Shown here: positions 60,829-61,438 of the stretch, piece by piece
How positions within the stretch are numbered: position 1 is the stretch's first letter
Layout of the letters: each line of letters opens with the position of its first letter
Assembly (NCBI GenBank): GCA_019240405.1
Contig: JAFAYL010000040.1
Coordinates: 1-61,632 of the forward strand
DNA length: 61,632 bases
Reading direction: 5' to 3'
DNA from: Acidobacteriaceae bacterium
Lineage (GTDB): Bacteria > Acidobacteriota > Terriglobia > Bryobacterales > Bryobacteraceae
Made by a program: the position numbers and the translations under genes
The notes under the pieces: generated by a model
The model's database searches: none
Told to the model about the DNA's origin: nothing
What the model saw: the letters and a program-made list of their open reading frames with translations, nothing else

Positions 60829-60856
60829 TTGACACATCCAAAACGCAGCTTATAAG
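60829..60856 (+). promoter_or_regulatory. Strong sigma-70-type promoter
   Basis: TTGACA (perfect -35) and TATAAG (near-consensus -10) are 16 bp apart. The expected start is near 60863. This is the best-looking promoter in the window and drives a unit that is not obviously a protein gene. Confidence 0.8.
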
Positions 60857-60894
60857 ATGGAAGTATCACTGAGGAAGGAGGTGGTCCAGTCGAA

Positions 60895-60951
60895 ATGAAT
60901 TCTGGTAGTGACTGTAGCATACAATCCACGCGCGAGGTGGCCGACTCTTAA
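60895..60951 (+). CDS. Short ORF of 18 codons in the small transcript
   Basis: The ATG is 13 bp after the GGAGG core, longer than the usual 5-9. The peptide is MNSGSDCSIQSTREVADS. A hairpin GGC-C-GACT/AGTC-GCC at 60939-60958 has the TAA stop in its loop. Past the stop, the same frame reads on to TAG at 61030 with a segment containing DEPKFLWTGRPSRVT. Another frame of the same stretch gives VTSRSSCGPVARRA and ends at TAA near 61025. Whether any of these is translated cannot be told from one sequence. Confidence 0.4.
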   Translation: MNSGSDCSIQSTREVADS

Positions 60952-61057
60952 AGTCGCCGTTCGTACGTTCAGGTTTCGTTCAGTGACGAGCCGAAGTTCC
61001 TGTGGACCGGTCGCCCGTCGCGCGTAACGTAGCTAGAGTATAGCCTTAAGGCTCCAA

Positions 61058-61110
61058 CAGAAACCCCGGATGATGCGCTTCTAGGCGCTCCTCTGGGGTT
61101 TCTGCTTTTG
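61058..61110 (+). terminator. Long terminator-like hairpin upstream of rpmE
   Basis: CAGAAACCCC (61058-61067) pairs perfectly with GGGGTTTCTG (61095-61104). An inner GCGC/GCGC pair is possible in the loop, and CTTTTG follows. It ends the small unit ~65 bp before rpmE, or acts as an attenuator for rpmE. Confidence 0.7.
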
Positions 61111-61174: not shown

Positions 61175-61438
61175 ATGAAAGCAGGGATTCATCCCGCCTA
61201 TGAGGAAGTGAATGTCGTTTGCGCGTGCGGATCAACCTTTCAGACTCGCTCGACTCATAAAGGCGACCTGCGCGTCGAAATTTGCGCGAGCTGCCACCCA
61301 TTCTTCACGGGCCGTCAGAAGCTGGTCGATACCGAAGGCCGTGTGGACCGCTTCCAGAAAAAGTTCGCCAAAGCCCGTGAACTGCAGGCGCAGAAAAAGA
61401 CGGCGGCAGACGCCAAGGCCGCCAAAAAAGTTCAGTAG
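61175..61438 (+). CDS. rpmE: 50S ribosomal protein L31 (zinc-binding type)
   Basis: An 87-residue protein starting [30 protein letters not shown]. The cysteines CAC and, later, [10 protein letters not shown] give the four-cysteine zinc ribbon (C+ form). An Ala/Lys-rich tail (KAAKKVQ) extends ~15 residues beyond the short forms. AAAGGAATTCATAAGC precedes the ATG; the GGA is about 12 nt upstream. It lies after a terminator-like hairpin and may be read from the strong promoter upstream or from its own. Confidence 0.95.

Follow-up and report, generated by a model that had tools for sequence, protein, structure and literature searches.

Towards the end of the 61,632-nucleotide stretch of DNA analysed here (the window; Acidobacteriaceae bacterium, contig JAFAYL010000040.1), a promoter is followed by a near-complement of the 16S rRNA 3′ tail, a reading frame of 18 codons and a terminator-like hairpin, with the gene for ribosomal protein L31 beyond. 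For this locus the initial annotation had considered an unusual leader peptide, a regulatory RNA that binds the 30S tail, and a leader for rpmE, the L31 gene.

The unit in the window and its recurrence

All features described here lie on the forward strand. The promoter as a whole spans 60829..60858, with a -35 box TTGACA (60829-60834) read from the sequence and a -10 box, from the sequence and a promoter scan, that is either TATAAG (60851-60856) or TAAGAT (60853-60858). The near-complement of the 16S tail, SD1 (AAGGAGGTGGTCCAGTC, 60875..60891), includes a GGAGG core (60877-60881), and 13 nt beyond this core an ATG (60895-60897) opens a micro-ORF of 18 codons plus TAA (MNSGSDCSIQSTREVADS, 60895..60951). 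Within the ORF lies a second SD-like sequence, SD2 (GAGGTGGCCGA, 60934..60944), whose GAGG is separated from the stop by 11 nt. The stop codon itself sits in the loop of a small hairpin, P4 (GACT-CTTAA-AGTC, 60943..60955). The unit closes with a terminator-like hairpin and T-rich tail (61058..61109), in which a directly read 10-bp stem (CAGAAACCCC/GGGGTTTCTG, 61058-61104) is followed by CTTTT; past it comes rpmE (61175..61438), named from its sequence. The promoter, SD1, the 18-codon ORF, the stop in a hairpin loop and the 10-bp terminator stem are thus all present where the initial annotation had placed them.

Automatic scans added little: one promoter site was returned, against 0.4 in shuffled sequence, and one weak terminator site in the window, against an average of 0.8 in shuffles. 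The RNA core was no more stable than its shuffles (z 0.25; z -2.57 once the terminator was included), and thermodynamic stability was dropped as evidence, which leaves conservation and covariation to carry the case. Among acidobacterial copies, 94 of 97 carry TTGAC at the -35 place, and our own scan found a terminator-like hairpin in 60/93 of them and in 10/25 Acidimicrobiia-type copies. The same scan was positive in 0/93 plain shuffles and in nine acidobacterial upstream stretches, a count given without the total scanned. These borders agree with the separate transcription unit that had been proposed. The ORF could also be read through its stop as part of a single longer frame, an outcome that had been feared as a refutation; this is plausible in the window and is broken by indels in relatives. 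Of 142 scored copies, 14 have a naive ORF of at least 130 codons that runs across the element. The window element is best explained as a stand-alone, terminated, structured RNA of ~245 nt with predicted ends.

The initial annotation had proposed a search of other acidobacterial genomes for conservation, and the element was found well past close relatives, in two phyla. Blastn located it in 30/60 relatives. R1, a covariance model built from 65 acidobacterial copies, matched 169/299 genomes of the class, 50/247 Acidobacteriota genomes at the level of the phylum, and 65/67 same-family genomes among those listed, 62 of these once. R2, built from 27 Acidimicrobiia-type copies, matched 55/119 Acidimicrobiia genomes and 105/296 Actinobacteriota genomes, once per genome with one exception in the class set and one in the phylum set. 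These model searches covered Acidobacteriota and Actinobacteriota; named genomes of all phyla were scanned with an exact pattern, which gave at least 118 stretches. Among the matches listed, 80 titled stretches came nearly all from Bryobacterales and other Acidobacteria or from Acidimicrobiia, three titled matches being named just 'bacterium'. Phages and plasmids held no match to the element, and viral contigs none to the exact pattern. On this comparison of sequences the recurrence of the unit is not chance, and its conservation extends well past close relatives; in both phyla the element is mostly single-copy per genome.

Two copies stand apart. A Bryobacterales-type copy (L100) occurs in a record titled as a Bordetella parapertussis MAG, probably a mislabelled bin. 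The draft genome of the window holds a second copy (L149; G000:C32, contig end 47994) before a different rpmE; because it lies at a contig end and precedes a different rpmE, it may stem from a related strain that was binned together with this one, or it may be a duplication.

Ribosome-binding sequences, reading frame and fold

Four of 40 relatives supplied the 16S tail TGCGGCTGGATCACCTCCTT; a search for GGCTGGATCACCTCC with at most one mismatch gave no match in the window's own draft genome. Against the expected complement AAGGAGGTGATCCAGCC, SD1 differs at two positions, both compatible with G-U pairing, as the initial annotation had said; this count rests on the tail as read in the four relatives. 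Counting the two G-U pairs, all 17 nt of SD1 pair with the tail along its full length. The first 15 bases of SD1 (AAGGAGGTGGTCCAG) occur exactly once in the 4.45-Mb draft, and allowing up to two mismatches there were 7 matches in total, compared with 13 for a backward control.

Counted from the 5′ end with G-U allowed, the paired run of SD1 is 13-17 in Bryobacterales-type and Acidimicrobiia-type copies, where the first 13 positions were fixed by the search pattern. Among model-found copies, counted only where they fit a loose SD motif, the run is mostly 14 (37/56 actinobacterial and 23/43 other acidobacterial copies; range 12-17). A further 15 acidobacterial copies carry an extra base after GGAGG (L175-L179, L181, L189, L196, L197, L205 and others) with near-complete 16S pairing otherwise, and 10 of the 15 pair over all 17 positions around the insert. 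Position 10 of SD1 is usually G, a wobble, in copies lacking the extra base and usually A in those having it; as the copies are related, this pattern is no more than suggestive. A pairing of SD1 with an internal GGACC was set aside, its changes not being joint (judged by eye, uncounted). The long complement of the 16S tail in this family is, as far as these alignments go, new here.

The ORF is kept in 99 of the 100 acidobacterial rows that are unique: its ATG lies 4-11 nt past SD1, in frame with the GAG of SD2, and the stop falls at the fifth codon after that GAG (TGA 42, TAA 39, TAG 18); ORF length takes ten values across the 99, every one a multiple of three. The hundredth row (L117) is a chance match inside a gene; among the 99, L112 was subsequently reassigned to the Acidimicrobiia type. 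Among the Acidimicrobiia-type rows the stop is present in 26/26 and an in-frame ATG, GTG or TTG in 24/26. Model-found places, selected without reference to the stop, have it in 55/61 actinobacterial and 56/64 other acidobacterial rows, the latter set being 64 of 80 R1 matches with the 16 best excluded. Four of the six actinobacterial exceptions (L271, L272, L308, L314) have SD2 in another frame and keep start and stop with a gap of 10; the remaining two had been anchored on the wrong GAGG and fit once corrected. Four of the eight acidobacterial exceptions were likewise mis-anchored and fit on inspection. Four of the 64 weaker acidobacterial places (L336, L337, L221, L209) lack the architecture of the element and are false or odd matches. 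From the GAGG of SD2 to the stop there are 11 nt, rarely 10.

Start codons are less uniform in Actinobacteriota: the 61 rows have TTG in 29, ATG in 13, GTG in 6 (three of these being artefacts of frame-shifted rows) and none of the three in frame in 13. Of the last, 11 have CTG, ATT or ATC at the site, L272 has a GTG in its own frame and L312 has nothing. The 11 copies with CTG, ATT or ATC follow a very strong SD (L255, L268, L270, L282, L284, L285, L288, L299, L302, L304, L340), and such non-standard starts could render initiation sensitive to start-codon proofreading.

The peptide itself behaves otherwise. In 67 pairs of similar acidobacterial ORF bodies, which are not independent, 41/164 codon changes were synonymous against a chance expectation of 21%, and changes at codon positions 1, 2 and 3 numbered 64, 59 and 82, a slight excess at the third. 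Purifying selection on the amino acids, as a functional small protein would display, was thus not seen in these acidobacterial copies, and the peptide body shows little or no sign of selection. Since frame and stop are conserved and the peptide hardly is, translation itself would be the functional event: the act of translation, not the peptide, seems to matter. An ORF that varies by whole codons, with its stop fixed after a second SD, emerges from this comparison as new here.

The ORF also contributes to the fold. Helix P2 joins the SD2 region (5′ strand 60926..60943, within the ORF; outer part ~60926-60935, core GGTGGCCG at 60936-60943) to a strand past the stop (61008..61024; core CGGTCGCC at 61008-61015, outer part ~61017-61024). 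Between the two strands stands hairpin P3 (GGTTTCG..CGAGCC, 60972..60992), whose loop CAGTG is the proposed partner, in PK1, of a CACTG near the expected 5′ end (60867..60871). Covarying pairs had been put forward as a check, and across 65 sequences all P3 pairs (7/7) vary on both strands. The P2 core varies little, with both-side changes in only 2/8 pairs, and in PK1 97.2% of cells are paired with a both-side change in 1/5 pairs, so that its signal appears to be mostly conservation. Four of five structure measures were reached by 0/500 shuffles and the fifth by one, and all five exceeded those of slid versions; the structure was drawn from the same 65 sequences, picked partly for a good P2 core. 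Before that selection, among 95 copies, the best partner of the P2 core matched 8/8 positions in 70, 7 in 18 and 6 in 7.

Swapping strands between copies gave a further comparison. For outer P2, whose 5′ strand is coding, 70 thinned Bryobacterales-type copies had -10.1 kcal/mol with their own partner and -7.3 with swapped ones (0/200 swaps). Beyond Bryobacterales the margins were modest: P2 pairs numbered 7.38 versus 6.73 in Actinobacteriota and 7.18 versus 6.77 in other Acidobacteriota (0/200 each), and energies were -21.1 versus -19.7 and -17.2 versus -16.6 kcal/mol, respectively (0/60 each). Conservation, pairing and swap counts alike take no account of relatedness among copies. In one copy (L091) SD2 and its P2 partner change jointly (GGTGATCG with CGATCACC). 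A hairpin akin to P4 folds in many, not all, of 70 relatives. Inspection by eye ruled against a helix between GGTAG of the ORF and a CTACC close to the 3′ end. Helix P2, from the SD2 region to the strand past the stop, is on these comparisons a new feature.

Relation to Ms_IGR-5

The initial annotation knew no RNA family that fits, and for the window itself this stands: its region gave no match to RF02471 (Ms_IGR-5) at E up to 10 and so falls short of the 45-bit gathering cut-off, and no Rfam leader matched, including the rpmE/L31 type. Near-misses to BSnc120 and sX12, located at the terminator and scoring far below their cut-offs, were rejected. For the family the statement does not hold, as intermediates tie the element to RF02471. 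We took 20 loci from model hits, 18 of them actinobacterial and 2 acidobacterial; 8 exceeded the RF02471 cut-off, at the places given by our models. A permissive search of 13 loci found RF02471 in 7 at E up to 1: an Acidimicrobiia copy (L051) reached 54 bits, above the cut-off, an acidobacterial one (L274) 44.8 bits, and L255, L273, L206, L183 and L216 scored lower; the other six (L171, L173, L174, L180, L190, L199) gave none. Across 199 Acidobacteriota genomes RF02471 matched 9, all 9/9 on R1 matches, and one of these, from the same phylum as the window (G941, 50.6 bits), was the sole one above the cut-off. There was no RF02471 match in the window's genome, in the one other genome listed from its taxonomic family (G060) or in 14 control genomes.

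Two separately built models therefore find the same places, as common descent would predict, and the tie of the window to RF02471 runs through these other acidobacteria matched by both. Ribosome-binding motifs shared by both models may contribute to the overlap, and some chance of convergence is left. The best explanation of the matches is that the window element is a distant homologue of Ms_IGR-5, a wording chosen over membership of the Rfam family because the window has no RF02471 match. In the Rfam consensus, as aligned to L256, L260 and L274, portions of the SD1 and SD2 regions are base-paired and the P2 3′ strand has no partner; the present comparisons favour P2 over the consensus at that strand.

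Published evidence of expression comes from actinobacterial members alone: Ms_IGR-5 was detected by RNA-seq (PMC8079986), described as a transcript unit (PMC8780764) and recorded as a transcript again (PMC10454040), and ribosomal reads fell on its homologues in two mycobacteria (PMC4974804), whose authors note that footprints can also come from non-coding RNAs. The original description (PMC3527728) aside, the accessible literature text mentions no ORF or 16S complement in Ms_IGR-5, and no Ms_IGR-5-type RNA in Acidobacteriota. Ms_IGR-5, a little-studied actinobacterial sRNA, thereby gains relatives in a second phylum and an ORF of which the presence, the whole-codon length and the stop position are conserved while the peptide hardly is. 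Whether it is translated for the act of translation becomes directly testable in ordinary Streptomyces. A correction of RF02471, filed as an sRNA gene, is also suggested, as pairing of the P2 3′ strand could improve the model.

Possible roles and comparison with known systems

We hypothesize that the element is a stand-alone RNA, homologous to Ms_IGR-5, and that a ribosome initiating at SD1 and stopping on SD2 determines its fold; we give this reading a probability of about 0.45. A 30S subunit would bind SD1, the 16S-tail complement, and the ribosome would translate, in Acidobacteriota as well, an ORF of about 10-21 codons, termination placing it on SD2. When the stop codon occupies the A site, GAGG precedes the P-site codon by 8 nt, a gap resembling the spacing used in initiation. 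A terminating ribosome dwelling there would cover SD2 and the P2 5′ strand and keep P2 open; P2 would then form only when no ribosome occupies them, giving a two-state switch between a ribosome-occupied and a ribosome-free fold. The stability of the RNA, or its activity in trans, would report ribosomes, or hold them. The often weak actinobacterial starts, 13/61 lacking an in-frame ATG, GTG or TTG, count against this explanation. A further-reaching version, in which the RNA gauges ribosomes in both phyla, the whole 16S tail initiating, SD2 holding the terminating ribosome, the fold reporting 30S supply or termination and the peptide being meaningless, is possible and distinctly more doubtful.

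A 30S trap, in which SD1 and SD2 tie up small subunits and so buffer the free 30S pool or help hibernation, would likewise suit the near-complement of the 16S tail and a second SD just ahead of the stop, no start codon having been noticed directly after it (by eye, uncounted). However, sequestration would need high RNA abundance, and SD1 retains a weak spot, the G-U at position 10 or the inserted base in 15 other-acidobacterial copies; we regard it as unlikely. A trans-acting antisense or sRNA regulator with an incidental ORF is slightly less likely again: the unit is stand-alone and Rfam files its homologue as an sRNA; against it, almost every copy examined retains both frame and stop.

We give little credence to a functional micropeptide whose product, with its TREVA-type ending, is active. 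The E-V ahead of the stop recurs in both phyla, but its codons are the nucleotides of SD2 and P2, the body is under little amino-acid constraint, four actinobacterial copies read the motif in another frame as Gly-Gly, and one group ends in SEGAEA. Equally improbable is a cis-acting attenuator of the gene downstream, which in this order is rpmE. The general role as an rpmE leader considered in the initial annotation is not supported. With one tblastn query and a range of 900 nt downstream, rpmE follows 62/100 Bryobacterales-type copies, mostly at 155-300 nt, but none of 27 Acidimicrobiia-type, 61 other actinobacterial and 61 other acidobacterial copies (0/149 together), so the element lacks the constant position before rpmE expected of an L31 leader. 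The nearest downstream ORF of at least 130 codons is, moreover, on the opposite strand in 39/64, 14/19, 9/18 and 20/40 scored copies of the four groups.

The preferred reading, a stand-alone RNA folded by its own ribosome, can be set beside known systems. Leader-peptide attenuators of the trp and tnaC type share with the element a short ORF, pairing around its end and a terminator; the element differs from them in that no regulated gene constantly follows it on the same strand and in having no regulatory codon run. Like the element, tmRNA is structured and carries a short reading frame; it has a tRNA-like domain and a tag frame lacking its own SD. The element, in contrast, has its own SD and start codon, and ARAGORN called only tRNA-Thr and tRNA-Cys in the window, both elsewhere, with no tmRNA or tRNA in the element. 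Dual-function sRNAs such as SgrS resemble it as small RNAs with a short ORF, while in the element the peptide body is hardly conserved and frame and stop are. Ms_IGR-5 differs in that the window scores no match to its model; in its actinobacterial copies it shares with the window element SD1, the ORF, SD2, the fixed stop and P2, and it too is mostly single-copy.
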